DNA of 47,187 bases from Prevotella sp. (GTDB taxonomy: Bacteria > Bacteroidota > Bacteroidia > Bacteroidales > Bacteroidaceae): the NCBI GenBank assembly GCA_017619445.1, contig JAFZSI010000001.1, positions 1-47,187 on the forward strand. Direction: 5' to 3'. The notes under the pieces are model-generated. The model did not search any database, was not told the origin of the DNA, and saw nothing but the letters and a program-made list of their open reading frames with translations. The position numbers were made by a program, and so were the translations under genes. Shown in pieces: positions 4,191 to 33,122 of this stretch. How positions within the stretch are numbered: position 1 is the stretch's first letter; each line of letters begins with the position of its first letter.

Positions 4191-4258
4191 GTTGATTTTT
4201 GTTCGCGACTCGGCAAAGCTCAAACAAGTTTGGCTTTGCTCTCGCTGCTTCAAAAATT
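4191..4258. repeat. Hairpin repeat with conserved flanks (copy 1), susC-susD gap
   Basis: The left flank GTTGATTTTTGTTCGCGACT plus CGGC and the right flank CTCGCTGCTTCAAAAATT match a second copy at 16728-16790, while the central stem differs. Here the stem is AAAGCTCAAAC / GTTTGGCTTT. The flanks can also pair with each other (ATTTTTG / CAAAAAT). It lies between susC and susD and would be transcribed. Confidence 0.75.
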
Positions 4259-4266
4259 ATCAATTA

Positions 4267-9197: not shown

Positions 9198-9237
9198 CAT
9201 TTTTTTTGTCTTTTTTGATGTTCTTTTTTTGATAAAT

Positions 9238-9293
9238 CTTCATGTTCGGCAAAGAAAACAAGTTTTCTGTAGGCTCACTAACTCAGATTTTCG
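9238..9293. repeat. Variable-stem hairpin repeat, subtype with CTGAGT flank (copy 1)
   Basis: In reverse orientation it reads AATCTGAGTTAGTGAGCC, then a stem ending TTGTTTTCTTTG, then CCGAACATGAAG. Copies at 19466-19528 and 21555-21618 are nearly identical to each other and similar to this one. Confidence 0.7.
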
Positions 9294-9312
9294 TTCCTTT
9301 GACTTCGTCGAA

Positions 9313-9387
9313 GGTACTCTCGTTCGGCTAAACAAAAGAAAAAAGAATTTTCCTTTTGTTTTTCGCTCACTTACTCGTACCTTTGCA
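9313..9387. repeat. Variable-stem hairpin repeat with built-in promoter box (copy 1)
   Basis: In reverse orientation the left flank is TGCAAAGGTACGAGTAAGTG then AGCG, and the right flank is CCGAACGAGAGTACCTTCGA. The stem AAACAAAAG / CTTTTGTTT lies between. The copy at 32817-32889 shares both flanks but has an unrelated stem. The TACCTTTG promoter box of the next gene lies in the flank. Confidence 0.78.
9378..9385 (+). promoter_or_regulatory. Predicted -7 box of the GtrA-like gene
   Basis: TACCTTTG followed by CA matches the Bacteroidetes -7 consensus. A TTTTG at about 9355, within the right arm of the repeat hairpin, is about 19 bp upstream and could be the -33 element. Confidence 0.65.
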
Positions 9388-9869: not shown

Positions 9870-9881
9870 AAAATTGTAAAT

Positions 9882-9910
9882 AGGAGTTCCTTGAGCTCCG
9901 CGAAAAAATT
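9882..9910. repeat. 22-bp interspersed repeat (copy 1)
   Basis: Begins GGAGTTCCTTGAGCTCCGCG followed by AA and an A-run. Identical 22-bp copies lie in reverse orientation at 18004-18025 and 30612-30633. A looser relative (GCGCCTTGAGCGTAGCGAAA) is at about 11142-11165. Confidence 0.8.
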
Positions 9911-9930
9911 GTCAAATTGTAAATAACTCA

Positions 9931-11112: not shown

Positions 11113-11238
11113 GATAAGAAACGAATTAGAATAATTAGAAGAGCGCCTTGAGCGTAGCGAAAAATTATCTCACAAATTAAAATAATTATTATTATCATTC
11201 GTGGTCAAAATTATTCCAATTATTCTAATTCGTTTCCT
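11113..11238. repeat. AT-rich inverted-repeat element, copy 1
   Basis: The left arm AGAAACGAATTAGAATAATT and right arm AATTATTCTAATTCGTTTC are reverse complements, with ATTCGTGG in the middle. It lies between the convergent glycosyltransferase and LRR genes. A sister element follows at 11271-11366. Nothing coding is seen in 11086-11382. Confidence 0.7.
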
Positions 11239-11270
11239 AAATAACAAATGAACTCTGTGTAAAATGGGAG

Positions 11271-11366
11271 ATAGGAAAGAAATTGGAATAATTGGAATAA
11301 TTTCACCATAAAAATCGTTTTTATTTTAAATAAAATTCGTGGATAATTATTCTAATTTCTTTCCTA
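11271..11366. repeat. AT-rich inverted-repeat element, copy 2
   Basis: The arms AGGAAAGAAATTGGAATAAT and AATTATTCTAATTTCTTTCC pair imperfectly around an internal ATTCGTGG, the same word as in copy 1. It could serve as a bidirectional end for the two convergent genes. Confidence 0.65.
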
Positions 11367-14097: not shown

Positions 14098-14304
14098 AGG
14101 GGAAATGTTAAAATCGAAAATTCTGTGCACAATATGTGCACAAAAAACTGCTGAGAGCAGAGACCCCATGCTTTGTTTCTCTATAGAATATGCCATAGAA
14201 ACGCATACCTGCACTTTGGAAACACAAAACGGCACTTTGCGTTCGTAAACCTGCACTTTACGATTGTAAAGCGTAGGTTTGTGCGCAAATTTTCTAGAAA
14301 ATTC
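14098..14304. repeat. Array of degenerate ~22-nt units (copy 1)
   Basis: A head (GAAATGTTAAAATCGAAAA, then TGTGCACAATATGTGCACAA) is followed by units of 20-22 nt such as CTGCACTTTACGATTGTAAA, ending in the palindrome AATTTTCTAGAAAATT. The same head, units and tail occur in reverse orientation at 19529-19690, and related units at 32940-33122. Unlike CRISPR, the units vary and there are no spacers. Confidence 0.65.
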
Positions 14305-16863: not shown

Positions 16864-17985
16864 TCAAACGGTTTCTTGTTCCGTTACGTCTTTTTTCGCT
16901 TTCGGTTTTTTCGTGCTGGTTTTCGTCCGTTTGGGGGTAGTTGTTTTTTTTCTTGCCTCGGCTGCCTGTCTTTCCTCCTCTTCAATTTTTTGCTTAATAG
17001 CCTTTTCCTTTTTCGCCTTTTTCTGTTTTTCAGACTCGGTTGAGTCGAGCTCAAGACCCTTGGCGGCGGCGTTGGCGTAGGTGGTGAGGCCGTTGTTGCC
17101 CACGAGGTTGAGCATGGTGCCTGCAAGGCTGTTCATGCTGAAGTAGTCGGGATAGACTTCGGCGAAGTTGTCGCACACCTTATCGGCAATGCCGAAGAGG
17201 GTGGCATACACCAGATACTCATCCCACAGCGGCAGCTCCTTGATTTGCTTGTCGGCAATGAGGGTGAAGTCCTCCAGGAAGTGCTTCAGGCCAAACACCT
17301 GCGTGGCGACCTTGGGGTCTTTTGCCATTTTCTTCTCCTGGTCGTCGAGTTTCTGTAAACTATTGACGAAAGGCTCGAAATGTTCGCCACGTGCGCGCAT
17401 ATACTGTTGCAGTTCGCGCGGTTGCAGCACCCGGTCGATGCCAGCCGCGCCGCTAATCATATTGTAGAACTTCCATTCCAGCGACTGCTGCTCCGCCACG
17501 CTGGGGGTCCAGTCGGCCACGGTAAGAACGGTGTGCGGCTCGGTGCCATACATAGTTGCCTTGTGCTCTATTCGGAGTGCCTTTTTGTTGAACAGGCGCA
17601 GGAAAAGCGCACCGAACAGTCCGTTGTAGTTGGTGACGAGCGCGGGAGAGAATGCGTTGGTAACGGTTGCCGCCACTTTCAGGTTGCCGTCGGCAGGCGG
17701 GTCGCGGTAATAGGAGCCTTCTTTGGTCAGTTTGCGCTTCTTCAGCCAGCGGCGCAGGGGTTGCAGCGAGATGACGTACCAGATGACGCTGAACGTTTTG
17801 CGCCACATGCCCACGAAGATGACTATCAGCACCAACGGCACGAAGATAATCAACAGGAAATCAATGCCCAGCTCAAGCCATTCGGGCAGGAACGACAGCC
17901 AGCTGTCGTTTTGCTGTTCTGTCTGCTGTGCTGTCAGTGGCAGTGCGCACAGCAGCGATATGATGGATAATAGAAACTTTTTCAT
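16864..17985 (-). CDS. Membrane protein of unknown function, DUF2207-like
   Basis: A 373-residue protein with a signal peptide (ends LTAQ), a membrane helix at about 35-60 (GIDFLLIIFVPLVLIVIFVG), a soluble domain, and a lysine-rich tail (about 315-373, KAKKEKAIKQKIEEEERQAA) that may be coiled coil. The segment LWDEYLVYATLFGIADKV resembles the end of DUF2207 membrane proteins, where a weakly enzyme-like domain precedes a WxxYLxYAxxxG motif. The next gene upstream encodes a related protein (LELWRVWTEYVAFGYVFGMG), suggesting a tandem duplication and shared complex. Function is unknown. The gap between the two carries two interspersed repeats. Confidence 0.75.
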   Translation of the reverse strand: MKKFLLSIISLLCALPLTAQQTEQQNDSWLSFLPEWLELGIDFLLIIFVPLVLIVIFVGMWRKTFSVIWYVISLQPLRRWLKKRKLTKEGSYYRDPPADGNLKVAATVTNAFSPALVTNYNGLFGALFLRLFNKKALRIEHKATMYGTEPHTVLTVADWTPSVAEQQSLEWKFYNMISGAAGIDRVLQPRELQQYMRARGEHFEPFVNSLQKLDDQEKKMAKDPKVATQVFGLKHFLEDFTLIADKQIKELPLWDEYLVYATLFGIADKVCDNFAEVYPDYFSMNSLAGTMLNLVGNNGLTTYANAAAKGLELDSTESEKQKKAKKEKAIKQKIEEEERQAAEARKKTTTPKRTKTSTKKPKAKKDVTEQETV

Positions 17986-18003
17986 TTACAATCTGACAAT
18001 TAT

Positions 18004-18025
18004 TTCGCGGAGCTCAAGGAACTCC
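18004..18025. repeat. 22-bp interspersed repeat (copy 2)
   Basis: Reverse orientation of the repeat at 9882; begins TTCGCGGAGCTCAAGGAACT and ends CC. Confidence 0.8.
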
Positions 18026-18067
18026 AATTTACAATTTATTGTTGCATTTGACAATTTGACAATTCTT

Positions 18068-19221: not shown

Positions 19222-19465
19222 TTTACAAATTTGGTTTTACGCTGTTTCACAATTGTCTTACATAAAAAATCGGTTAACATGGGTTTTTCGCAGAACTTAA
19301 GACCCACTACAAGTATCAACGAAGTTAATTATCAAAACTCTGTCCGCAAAAATAATAAAAAAACATGAAACATGGTGCGCCAAAGCCTGTTTTTTTTCTT
19401 GTTTATTTCCTCATGTTGTTTCCGCGAAGTCCCAGACGTTTTTTCCTAACCTGTGCTTTACGCTC

Positions 19466-19528
19466 AAAAACTGAGTAAATGAGCGCAAAGAAAGCTTGTT
19501 TTCTTTGCCGAACGTGAAGTTTTTATCT
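19466..19528. repeat. Variable-stem hairpin repeat, CTGAGT subtype (copy 2)
   Basis: Reads CTGAGTAAATGAGCG, stem CAAAGAAAGCTTGTTTTCTTTG (21 bases with loop, given as CAAAGAAA / TTTCTTTG), then CCGAACGTGAAG. It is almost identical to the copy at 21555-21618 and is followed directly by a 22-nt unit array. Confidence 0.75.
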
Positions 19529-19690
19529 AAATTTTCTAGAAAATTTCATCATAAAGCGGCTCTTTGTGACCGTAAAGTGCAGGTATAGCAAAACAAAGTG
19601 AATCTTTATGGATGCAAAGTATGGGTCTATGCTTCCCATAGTTATTTGTGAACAAATTGTGCACAGTTTTTTCGGTTTTAACATTTCCGT
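19529..19690. repeat. Array of degenerate ~22-nt units (copy 2, reversed)
   Basis: On the minus strand it has the same order as 14098-14304: head GAAATGTTAAAACCGAAAAA and CTGTGCACAATTTGTTCACA, units such as CTGCACTTTACGGTCACAAA, and the AATTTTCTAGAAAATTT tail. No open frame is convincing within 19222-19865. Confidence 0.65.
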
Positions 19691-21490: not shown

Positions 21491-21554
21491 AAATGCTTCC
21501 CTGCTTCTCTCTGTCAAAAACGCAAAATGGGGGCAAAAAAGCAATTCGTAAAAG

Positions 21555-21618
21555 AAAAATCTGAGTAAGTGAGCGCAAAGAAAGCTTGTTTTCTTTGCCG
21601 AACGTGAAGATTTTATCT
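21555..21618. repeat. Variable-stem hairpin repeat, CTGAGT subtype (copy 3)
   Basis: Reads CTGAGTAAGTGAGCG, stem CAAAGAAA / TTTCTTTG, CCGAACGTGAAGATTTTAT. It lies just upstream of the tRNA-Gln promoter. Confidence 0.75.
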
Positions 21619-30598: not shown

Positions 30599-30611
30599 GC
30601 CAAATAATTTT

Positions 30612-30633
30612 TTCGCGGAGCTCAAGGAACTCC
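30612..30633. repeat. 22-bp interspersed repeat (copy 3)
   Basis: Identical to 18004-18025; the same order (22-bp repeat, then AT-rich words, then the 33-nt palindrome) occurs at both places. Confidence 0.8.
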
Positions 30634-30669
30634 AATTTCTCATTTCCCCATTTCTCATTTCCCATTTAT

Positions 30670-30706: not shown

Positions 30707-32773
30707 TCACCCTACTTGGCTTCCGGGCTTTACGTCTTTGGTGGTGGTGACCACGCTGAGGCTCTCGTCGGCATCTACTGCGCTGAGAATCATTCCCTGG
30801 CTCTCGACACCCATCATCTTGCGCGGCGCGAAGTTGGCCACAAACAGAATGCGCTTGCCGATGAGCTCCTCGGGATTCTCGTAAAAAGCGGCGATGCCCG
30901 AGCAAATGGTGCGCGGCTGGCCGCTGCCGTCGTCGATGGTGAACTGCAACAGCTTCTTTGATTTCTTCACCCGCTGGCAGTCGGTCACCAGTCCCACGCG
31001 GATGTCGAGCTTCTCAAACTCCTCGAAGCTCACCGTTTCCTTTATGGGCTCAGGCTTCCATGCTGCGGCCTCGTTGGCCCGCTTGGTGGCTTCGAGCTTG
31101 TCGAGCTGACGCTGAATCACTTCATCGTCAATTTTCTCGAACAGCAGTTCGGGCTCGCCCAGCTGGTGGCCAGGTTTCAGAATGTCGGTGTCGCCCAGCT
31201 GATTCCAGTCGAAAGTCTCAACGTTGATCATCTGGCGCAGCTTCTTTGACGAGAATGGCAGGAAGGGCTCGAAGGCGATGGCCAGGTTTGCCGTCAGCTG
31301 CAGGCAGATGCTGAGAATGGTTTCCACGCGCTTGGGGTCTGTCTTCCACACTTTCCACGGCTCGCACTCGGTGATGTATCGGTTGCCGATGCGTGCCAGG
31401 TTCATGGCCTCCTTCTGTGCGTCGCGGAACTTGAACTGGTCGAGCATTTGCTCAACTTTCTGTTTCACGTCTTTGAACTCGTCCAAGGCCTGACGGTCAA
31501 CCTCCTGCAGCTCACCGCAGGCAGGCACCACACCCGCAAAATATTTCTTGGTCAGTTGCAGGGCACGGTTCACGAAGTTGCCATAGACGGCCACCAGCTC
31601 GTTGTTGTTGCGTTCCTGGAAGTCCTTCCAAGTAAAGTTGTTGTCCTTCGTCTCGGGCGCATTGGCCGTCAGTACGTAGCGCAGCACGTCCTGTTTGCCG
31701 GGCATGTCCTCCAGATACTCATGCAGCCACACTGCCCAGTTTCTGGAAGTGCTTATTTTGTCGTTCTCAAGGTTCAGGAACTCGTTGGCGGGCACGTTGT
31801 CGGGCATGATATACTTGCCGTGCGCCTTCATCATCACGGGGAAGATGATGCAGTGGAACACGATGTTGTCCTTGCCGATGAAGTGCACCAGCCGTGTGTC
31901 CTCGTCCTGCCACCACTGCTGCCACGAGCCCCATCGCTCGGGGTCGCTCTCGCACAGCTCCTTGGTGTTGCTCACATAGCCAATAGGCGCGTCAAACCAC
32001 ACGTAGAGCACCTTGCCCTCGGCACCCTCTACGGGCACGGGGATGCCCCAGTCCAGGTCGCGCGTCATGGCGCGTGGCTGCAGGTCCATGTCTAACCAGC
32101 TCTTGCACTGACCATACACATTGCTGCGCCACTCCTTGTGGTCCTCCAGAATCCACTTTTTGAGCCACTCCTGATATTCGTTCAGCGGCAGATACCAGTT
32201 CTTCGTCTCGCGCAGCACGGGCGTGGAGCCGCTGATGGTGCTCTTGGGGTTAATCAGCTCCGTGGGCGAGAGGTCGCGTCCGCACTTCTCGCACTGGTCG
32301 CCGTAGGCACCCTCGTTGTGACAGTACGGGCACTCGCCCGTCACGTAGCGGTCGGCCAGAAACTGTCGGGCCTCCTCGTCGTAGAGCTGCGTGGTGGTTT
32401 CCTCCGTCAGCTTGCCCTCGTCGTAGAGTTTCTTGAACCATTCGGCGGCAAACTTGTGGTGAGTCTCCGAGGTGGTGCGGCTATAGATGTCAAACGAGAT
32501 GCCAAACTCCTCAAACGACCGTTTGATGAGCCCGTGGTAGCGGTCAACCACATCCTGCGGCGAAATGCCCTCCTTGCGGGCGCGGATGGTGATGGGCACA
32601 CCGTGCTCATCGCTGCCGCCGATGAACATCACCTGCCGTTTCTTCAGTCTCAGATAGCGCACGTAGATGTCTGCCGGCACATACACCCCAGCCAGATGCC
32701 CGATGTGCACACCCCCGTTGGCGTAGGGCAGAGCCGAAGTCACCGTGATGCGCTTATAATTCCTCTTCGTCAT
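30707..32773 (-). CDS. metG: Methionyl-tRNA synthetase
   Basis: A 688-residue class I synthetase that attaches methionine to tRNA-Met. The HIGH motif is His23-His26 in [10 protein letters not shown]. The zinc knuckle [18 protein letters not shown] follows at about 145-162, and the KMSKS-type loop reads [13 protein letters not shown], a common variant in this group. The anticodon-binding helices come next, and an EMAP/Trbp111-like tRNA-binding domain ends the protein (about 585-688; [40 protein letters not shown]). Full length for the dimeric type. Its promoter lies within a repeat about 50 bp upstream. Confidence 0.98.
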
Positions 32774-32816: not shown

Positions 32817-32889
32817 TGCAAAGGTACGATTAAGTGAGCGAAAATGCAAATTTATTTGCAATTTTCCGAACGTGAGTACCTTCGACAAG
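32817..32889. repeat. Variable-stem hairpin repeat with built-in promoter box (copy 2)
   Basis: Left flank TGCAAAGGTACGATTAAGTG then AGCG, stem GAAAATGCAAAT / ATTTGCAATTTTC, right flank CCGAACGTGAGTACCTTCGA. The flanks match 9313-9387 almost base for base while the stem is unrelated. A degenerate half copy (CAAAGGTGCAATTAAGCGAG) follows at 32893. Confidence 0.78.
32819..32826 (-). promoter_or_regulatory. Predicted -7 box of metG
   Basis: The minus strand reads TACCTTTG then CA, about 46 bp before metG, within the flank of a variable-stem hairpin repeat. ATTTG in the stem, about 20 bp upstream, could be the -33 element. Confidence 0.65.
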
Positions 32890-32939
32890 GGTCAAAGGTG
32901 CAATTAAGCGAGAAAAAACCAAAAGAATCGAGAGCTTTT

Positions 32940-33122
32940 TTGCCAAACCTTCACTTTGTGTTCATAAACCTACACTTTACGACAATAACTCTATGCTTTA
33001 TGGTTGAATTTTCTAAAGAATTTGATGCCAACCCAAATGTTACGCTCAAATTCTTTAGAAAATTCATTCATAAACCCGCACTTTACAACCGTAAACTGTA
33101 TGTTTGCGCTCGTAAACCATTT
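32940..33122. repeat. Array of degenerate ~22-nt units (copy 3)
   Basis: Units such as CACTTTGTGTTCATAAACC, CACTTTACGACAATAACTC and GCACTTTACAACCGTAAACT, plus an inverted pair GAATTTTCTAAAGAATTTGA / CAAATTCTTTAGAAAATTCA around AACCCAAATGTTACGCT. No gene is seen in 32774-33137. Confidence 0.6.

Follow-up and report, generated by a model that had tools for sequence, protein, structure and literature searches.

A stretch of 47,187 nucleotides from a Prevotella genome, here called the window, contains two copies of a repeat with near-identical flanks, one upstream of a GtrA-like gene and the other upstream of metG. Promoter change is usually ascribed to point mutation or to chance insertion of a transposon with an outward promoter. 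The repeat raises the question whether a promoter can also be carried from gene to gene as a portable module. The results described below suggest that it can: Prevotella-type gut and rumen bacteria harbour numerous copies of a hairpin element of about 80 letters, which seems to enter promoters and to provide a new one in their place.

Two copies of the repeat in the window

Both copies were found in the sequence where the original prediction had placed them, with the flanks it described, and the -7 box of the GtrA-like gene or metG does fall within the flank, as TACCTTTG at 9378-9385 (+) and 32819-32826 (-). The proposed extent of the repeat was correct as far as these flanks go, but the repeat continues past the right flank into a small second hairpin and an upstream -7-like box, and another unit precedes both copies. 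The upstream box of each window copy is degenerate and is part of another unit. The central stems had been described as sharing no sequence, which is wrong for the TTTG box: since the stem holds the predicted -33 box, CAAA...TTTG occurs in both stems, with TTTG 19 and 20 nt before TACCTTTG. The expectation that each stem pairs with its own other arm was borne out in both copies. Folding as single-stranded DNA gave a weak signal for copy 1 (z −1.86, 8 of 200 shuffles as good) and a z of −3.55 for copy 2 (1 of 200 shuffles as good).

A covariance model (R1) was built from 31 copies of the source genome aligned on the promoter strand (alignment A1). These 31 were kept from 40 copies for the alignment and the pair counts; six were beyond the mismatch limit and three near duplicates were dropped by hand. 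The features in the window are as follows.

9307..9387, + strand: copy 1 of the element, whole model match, upstream of a GtrA-family gene (R1 85.2 bits, positions 1-75 of 75; high by construction because the copy is among the 31 model-building sequences)
9229..9295, + strand: second unit type with arms AAATCT/AGATTT, lacking a full -7 box and abutting copy 1 (weak R1 match, 24.0 bits; repeats I2 and I6)
9294..9309, + strand: degenerate upstream -7-like box TTCCTTTG and tip GAC-TTC-GTC of copy 1 (from the sequence; hairpin with 9310-9314 from the fold)
9301-9309, + strand: hairpin tip GAC-TTC-GTC of copy 1 (from the sequence)
9310..9317, + strand: inverted box GAAGGTAC of copy 1 (from the sequence; covaries with the terminal box across the family)
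9330..9361, + strand: variable inner stem-loop of copy 1 (fold; arm-swap test over the family)
9355..9358, + strand: -33-type TTTG in the 3' arm of the stem of copy 1, 19 nt upstream of the -7 box (sequence, spacing census)
9378..9385, + strand: -7 box TACCTTTG of copy 1, followed by CA and the leader (sequence; TAnnTTTG consensus as given in the available part of PMC7366714)
9422..9802, + strand: gene downstream of copy 1, GtrA_DPMS_TM family (PF04138, 69.5 bits)
32817..32886, - strand: copy 2 of the element, whole model match, upstream of metG (R1 88.8 bits, positions 1-75 of 75; high by construction for the same reason)
32819..32826, - strand: -7 box TACCTTTG of copy 2 (sequence)
32847..32850, - strand: -33-type TTTG in the 3' arm of the stem of copy 2, 20 nt upstream of the -7 box (sequence, spacing census)
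32876..32883, - strand: inverted box GAAGGTAC of copy 2 (sequence; family-wide covariation with the terminal box)
32884..32900, - strand: tip GAC-CCTT-GTC (32884-32893) and degenerate upstream -7-like box CACCTTTG of copy 2, the end of an older unit (sequence, fold)
32891-32955, - strand: older unit adjoining copy 2 (weak R1 match, 21.7 bits)
30707..32773, - strand: gene downstream of copy 2, metG, methionyl-tRNA synthetase (PF09334, 536.6 bits)

The second unit type is also found at 19463-19527 (-) and 21552-21618 (-). It shares the constant sides of the ordinary unit but lacks a -7 box, and its arms read AAAATCT/AGATTTT or AAAAACT/AGTTTTT. At other loci it sits between the hairpin and the -7 box of an ordinary unit, and the outer arms then enclose two hairpins. 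A further weak R1 match was obtained at 4191-4261 (+) with filters off (25.3 bits, E 0.0006). The window holds other repeats as well. A dispersed repeat, CTTTGCGTT...AAACCTGCACTTTACG...TTTTCTAGAAAATT, is present at 14225-14303, 32944-33022, 33049-33116 and 19571-19607, and similar text precedes several loci of the source genome. The repeat AATTGTAAATAGGAGTTCCTTGAGCTCCGCGAAAAAATT is found at 9871-9924, 17984-18037 and 30606-30645 (90-94% alike, in opposite orientations), and an inverted repeat at 11208-11303 has 32-nt arms that are 91% complementary and 32 nt apart.

Unit anatomy and the predicted built-in promoter

Read along the promoter strand, an upstream TAnnTTTG (P1) precedes the unit, which is made up of the hairpin tip, an inverted box GAAnnTAC (P1'), a constant side containing CGTTCG, the stem-loop, a second constant side CGCTCACTTAATC and a terminal TAnnTTTG (P2); CA and the gene leader come next. 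The unit length is about 70-85 nt. According to the available part of PMC7366714, the consensus for the primary sigma factor of Bacteroides is TAnnTTTG at -7 with TTTG near -33. The terminal TAnnTTTG was present in 84 of the 105 matches in the source genome and in 126 of 146 matches in relatives; matches lacking it (21/105 and 20/146) were excluded from the spacing count. Among copies with the terminal box, the distance from TTTG to P2 was 19 or 20 nt for 71 of 84 in the source genome and for 122 of 126 in relatives; TTTG was absent from the range of 15-26 nt in 13 and 4 copies, respectively. Apart from these values, the range contained just a spacing of 24 nt, seen six times and always alongside a 19 or 20. 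By this census most copies have both features of a sigma-ABfr-type promoter, the -7 TAnnTTTG and the -33 TTTG. The 3' arm of the stem and the terminal box would together make up a whole Bacteroidetes -33/-7 promoter, as predicted from consensus and position.

P1' and the -7 box often change jointly: GAAGGTAC goes with GTACC, GAAGATAC with GTATC and GAAGTTAC with GTAAC. The short inverted box AAGGTAC/GTACCTT covaries in this way, yet the unit ends differ (CGAAGG vs CAAAGG). The constant sides are linked as well, CGTTCG occurring with CTCACTT and CGCTCG with CTCGCTT. The pairs counted were TA 42, CG 17, CA 15 and TG 1 in the source genome and TA 95, CG 9 and CA 2 in relatives, most of which were picked by a pattern that fixes TA. 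Some copies (L143, L161, L191, L196 and L330) retain only the 3' half, intact from mid-stem to box and fused to unrelated 5' DNA; these may result from either truncation at insertion or one-sided decay.

Copy number and host range

The repeat had been recognised at two loci, and searches beyond these uncovered a repeat family in the source genome and its relatives. The source genome (G000) comprises 2,865,063 bases (2.87 Mb) in 81 contigs and is 85% complete. The left-flank pattern TGCAAAGGTACGANTAAGTG occurs in it exactly 18 times, with none for the reversed control, and BLAST with the copy at 32817 gave 50 matches. The exact two-flank pattern, which is too strict, matched once. A looser pattern gave 25 matches vs 2 in the reversed control, with those on C11, C62, C67 and C70 resembling chance by eye. 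R1 gave 105 matches at E ≤ 0.01 among the best 150 of 2571 candidates.

In a survey of 60 sampled genomes with R1 at E ≤ 0.001, 29 were positive, all of them in the genus of the source genome (29 of 36 members, itself included). The 24 genomes that each represent another family of the order gave no match at this threshold. Near-complete genus members without the element include G003, G004, G016, G017 and G026. On the basis of the best 78 candidates per genome, G027, G032 and G035 contain 75, 74 and 52 copies and the source genome at least 78. In the wider sample from the family, the element was present in 46 of 121 genomes, which represent 17 of 30 genera (E ≤ 1e-5, best 38 candidates per genome). 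A pattern with a free stem matched at least 114 contigs of named genomes. The 80 matches listed belong to Prevotella, Prevotellaceae, Bacteroidaceae, Bacteroidales and Xylanibacter, plus one 'uncultured bacterium', and are mostly from metagenome-assembled genomes; the isolates among them are Prevotella sp. P5-50, P. aff. ruminicola Tc2-24, Prevotella sp. tc2-28, HUN156 and Xylanibacter brevis ATCC 19188. No match was obtained in viral contigs (exact pattern) or in phages and plasmids (blastn with one 91-base copy), collections that may contain little Prevotella.

Stems and tips vary and remain complementary

If the stem is replaced or selected for structure, other copies should have different stems that still pair, and this is what the family displays. 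Across the 114 contigs of named genomes, the free-stem pattern, which fixes three A at the stem start, gave 120 matches; their stems measure 26 to 48 nt and comprise 106 different sequences. When right arms were swapped among stems of equal length, none of 200 swapped sets folded as well, for each of the lengths 28, 29, 38 and 39. In 45 stems of 28 nt, pair 5-23 was AT in 30 and TA in 12, pair 6-22 was AT in 22, TA in 12 and GC in 8, and pair 7-21 was paired in just 23. In alignment A1, a fixed alignment that shifts short stems by one column, 88.8% of cells were paired vs 85.4% in shuffles and two-sided changes were found in 26 cells vs 10.8 in shuffles; further pair types were not above shuffles (13 vs 13.4). 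The tips behave similarly: 72 were distinct among 109, a few of them misread, and 84 had at least three closing pairs vs about 7% of shuffled tips. At two loci, C37:25726 of the source genome and L150:1864, the tip seems to retain letters of the native leader (TTTGCACAG-AAAAA-CTGTGC and TTTGCAAT-AAAT-ATTGC), as if the inverted arm had copied the target.

Complementarity would be kept either because movement or promoter function requires a hairpin, or via repair of imperfect palindromes. In the second case, template switching during replication would perfect imperfect palindromes by mutation, with no selection involved. The fact that three hairpins, among them a tip with no evident job, all stay complementary while changing fits this mutational origin. 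On the other hand, CAAA/TTTG within the stem is nearly invariant, which points to selection on parts of the stem, and the left hairpin retains bulges and a T-G pair. We regard template switching as a plausible but lesser explanation of the complementarity.

Position, direction and downstream genes

Of the 105 copies in the source genome, 25 were flagged as preceding another copy; the other 80 are gene-proximal. With open reading frames called by a simple length rule, not by a gene finder, and with 2 of the 80 overlapping a following second-type unit, the next downstream gene was on the same strand for 75 of the 80 gene-proximal copies and not for 5. The upstream neighbour was on the same strand in 47 cases and on the opposite strand in 32, with none in one case. 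The first in-frame ATG was at a median distance of 29 nt downstream (n = 69, 65 within 100 nt). The box was followed by CA in 50 of 80 gene-proximal copies vs 0 of 25 tandem-internal copies, in which AC was commonest (16). Arrays in the source genome comprised 55 single units, 20 of two, two of three and one of four. At L342:975-1192 (+), in the typA locus of another genus member, three tandem R1 matches with an unusually high GC content (0.56-0.59) lie away from the typA promoter.

Downstream genes that scored over the NCBIfam cut-off were ffh, a queuosine precursor transporter, recF and an ABC-F gene. Matches to lon, aroB, typA, a CCA tRNA nucleotidyltransferase, a lacZ-type gene, olsH, a gene with a uridine-kinase domain, a PBP1A-type gene and gyrB scored below cut-off, mostly because the loci were cut. 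Six of the 20 downstream proteins scanned had no NCBIfam match at 1e-10. Similar promoters are thus found upstream of non-homologous genes, the mark of putative mobile promoters. A common regulon was considered and rejected: the named products among 22 downstream proteins (20 scanned with NCBIfam, and metG and the GtrA-family protein identified by Pfam) are unrelated in function.

These data also bear on the reading that the repeat acts as transcribed RNA (a riboswitch, terminator or sRNA) and not as DNA. Covariation and the A-rich and T-rich arms would suit an RNA. Against this, upstream genes occur in either orientation, and single copies would lie upstream of the transcription start since the unit ends at the -7 box. 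At the gathering score, Rfam found only four tRNAs in the window and no match to the element, and with five loci at E ≤ 1 only microRNA models appeared, far under cut-off. An RNA element is therefore considered extremely unlikely.

Filled and empty orthologous promoters

Promoters of metG, typA and recF were compared between the source genome and relatives. These loci were picked since they are filled in the source genome, and the counts are therefore uninformative about the overall frequency of the element. For metG, 17 of 19 genus relatives had TAnnTTTG, and R1 was clear at the promoter in four (G006, G018, G020, G023) and weak in two (G013, G019). The filled relatives carry other stems, and G022 has a related hairpin that was missed by R1. 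No element was found in the other 12 of the 19 relatives by R1, nor in four genomes of outgroup families by eye.

Among 29 relatives examined for typA, two lacked the box. The element was clear in three (G032, G093, G109), weak in G028 and G139 (a 3' half) and weaker in G125, and G097 had weak matches in both directions. The source genome reads TAATTTTG, then the 85-nt unit, then CACCCG; the empty loci L333, L354 and L355 have TAATTTTG joined directly to CAGCCG, CACCCG and CACTCG.

The recF locus was compared with 29 relatives, two without the box, of which 10 were chosen for alignment. The upstream flank of the source genome is 58% (61/105) to 80% (77/96) identical to these 10, and an 82-nt unit present in the source genome is absent from all of them. 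R1 was clear in 1 of 29 (G110) and weak in two (G114, G127), and in G119 a strong match lies near recF in the opposite direction. The aligner placed the gap before the box and so paired the relatives' box with P2. We read P1 as the native box, because TAACTTTG occurs in 6 of 10 aligned and 11 of 27 boxed relatives and the P2 sequence TATCTTTG in 4 of 27, and in view of the family-wide comparison of boxes described below.

Presence and absence at orthologous promoters, as expected of a mobile promoter, was thus observed at three loci. Together with the spread of the family and its complementary stems, it supports the original prediction of a portable promoter module with a stem that is either exchanged or kept for its structure; the promoter activity of the module is predicted from the -33/-7 consensus and its position. 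Two findings that the prediction had named as refuting it, flank matches confined to the two window loci and non-complementary stems in other copies, were not obtained. The filled and empty sites also allow another reading, in which the repeat is not mobile and an old promoter structure was retained by selection as a regulatory hairpin or cruciform and lost in many genomes. Stem, tip and arms are strongly constrained in structure and lie in register with the promoter, which is compatible with this reading. It is nevertheless very unlikely, as most recF, typA and metG relatives and the four metG outgroup families have no unit, filled relatives differ in stems and tips, and the downstream genes share no common function.

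Which part would move

The three boxes were compared over the family. After removal of duplicates, a strict box pattern allowed P1, P1' and P2 to be read in 98 copies, including the nearly identical L140 and L146, and P1 equals P2 in 72. In the 26 copies where P1 and P2 differ, P1' matches only P2 in 17, only P1 in one and neither in 8, although in those copies of relatives that were picked with the free-stem pattern the agreement between P1' and P2 is partly built in, because this pattern fixes P2 and half of P1'. For the 10 differing copies of the source genome the corresponding numbers are 6, 0 and 4. The recF and typA copies are among those in which P1' matches neither box. A looser box pattern gave 30 differing copies of 101 (19, 1 and 10), with a few upstream boxes misread, and the strict figures were used. 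As far as box sequences can tell, this favours P1' and P2 travelling together, with P1 as the older box, which would place the junction after the native TTTG. Since TTTG flanks the unit on both sides, the sequence would be the same whether or not insertion duplicated the 4 bases TTTG.

Spread by recombination is a competing explanation, in which promoter tracts are copied over others by gene conversion or template switching at TAnnTTTG and no dedicated mobile element exists. It would account for the tandem arrays of 2-4 units, for the 3'-half copies and for the fact that neither a candidate transposase nor an autonomous copy was found in the searches described in the next section. It is less easily reconciled with the gain of about 80 nt at a single position that has a box on either side, with a tip hairpin that varies between copies (72 distinct of 109), and with a left constant side that is conserved although it lies outside the -33/-7 region. 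We consider recombination possible but rather unlikely. The element is probably one of a family of non-autonomous mobile promoter elements that insert at the TTTG of -7 boxes and restore a promoter, a reading based on sequence comparison.

Proposed mechanism and search for a driver

In the mechanism that we propose for the mobile element, the unit would enter a -7 box already in place, at its TTTG and always along the direction of transcription. The leader of the gene would thereby come to follow the -7 and -33 boxes of the element, so that expression could survive. Tandem arrays may arise from repeated insertion or unequal crossing-over. The least certain step is insertion into the single-stranded non-template strand of an open promoter complex, which would explain the fixed place and direction. 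P1' could serve as a guide that pairs with both boxes, and guide sequences of IS200/IS605 elements pair in this way. When three copies were folded as DNA, the left hairpin and the stem were favoured over the outer P1'-P2 helix.

A search for the enzyme gave mostly negative results. PF01797 (Y1 transposase) was not found over cut-off in the source genome (85% complete), and no autonomous copy, in the form of a left end split from its hairpin by a gene, was found in 1.2 Mb of loci. The search for this family also covered the 60 sampled genomes, and across the 36 genus members the Y1 score did not correlate with copy number (Spearman −0.08, p 0.64). PF01797 had no match in G027 (79% complete), G032 and G035 despite their 75, 74 and 52 copies, and good Y1 matches were present in G004, G010, G016 and G029, with 0 or 1 copy, as well as in the carriers G006, G018, G025 and G028 (13-29 copies).

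These results weigh on the possibility that the repeat is a REP/REPIN-type element moved by a RAYT or an IS200/IS605 Y1 transposase, with recognition of a single-strand hairpin and a guide that pairs with the cleavage site. The hairpin unit, the fixed TTTG target, an inverted box resembling both flanking boxes, the limited host range, the high copy number and the good Y1 matches in the four carriers agree with this. The lack of correlation between Y1 score and copies, and PF01797 being below cut-off in the source genome and absent from the three high-copy genomes, argue against it, with the limit that the gene could be missing from the incomplete assemblies of the source genome and G027. Overall, a REP/REPIN-type element appears improbable.

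A bolder form of the mobile-element reading, which we offer tentatively and think doubtful in full, is that of a promoter-homing hairpin that would enter single-stranded DNA of the transcription bubble 3' of the -7 TTTG, oriented along transcription, and rebuild a full -33/-7 promoter, moved by an enzyme outside the recognised Y1 transposases. If true, promoters of core genes (recF, typA, lon, ffh, gyrB, metG) would have been rewired across the family, and such an element would hide from selection because each insertion repairs itself.

A short element that seems to aim at the -7 box of a promoter and to supply the gene with a new standard promoter gives direct access to the study of promoter turnover in common rumen and gut bacteria. 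With more than 100 stem variants at an almost constant -33/-7 spacing, the family also forms a natural library, and it provides a target in the search for a mobile-DNA enzyme not yet recognised.

Comparison with known systems

No prior description of the repeat was found in the literature at the level of titles and abstract openings, with partial journal coverage. Putative mobile promoters, reportedly described by Matus-Garcia, Nijveen and van Passel, are near-identical promoters upstream of unrelated genes in one genome. The element resembles them in placing a similar promoter at unrelated genes, and adds a hairpin unit of defined layout, a proposed site of insertion at the -7 box, and orthologous promoters in which the unit is absent. 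As far as the available parts of the sources describe them, three other systems are similar in some respects and different in others. BrickBuilt, a MITE of Porphyromonas gingivalis (PMC4596501), is likewise an intergenic, promoter-bearing element of Bacteroidales, but it has 23-nt direct repeats and promoters in both directions, whereas the element described here is about 80 nt long, one-directional and tied to -7 boxes. The Correia/NEMIS and RUP elements (PMC2229807) are, in the text available, also small non-autonomous repeats with inverted ends, the former with putative promoters; they have TA ends and target duplications, while the present element follows a -7 TTTG and ends in its own -7 box. 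REP/REPIN sequences with RAYT, as presented in the accessible portions of PMC2817692 and PMC8049555, share with the element dispersed high-copy palindromes with complementary changes that are often clustered. In contrast to these, the element lacks the GT(A/G)G head (GTAG) at the foot of the palindrome, where the A1 consensus has CGTTCGG, and Y1 genes are not linked to its copy number. Promoter-carrying mobile repeats are already known; what would be new here is the -7-box site, the proposed restoration of a promoter by the element itself, and stems that are free in sequence but complementary.
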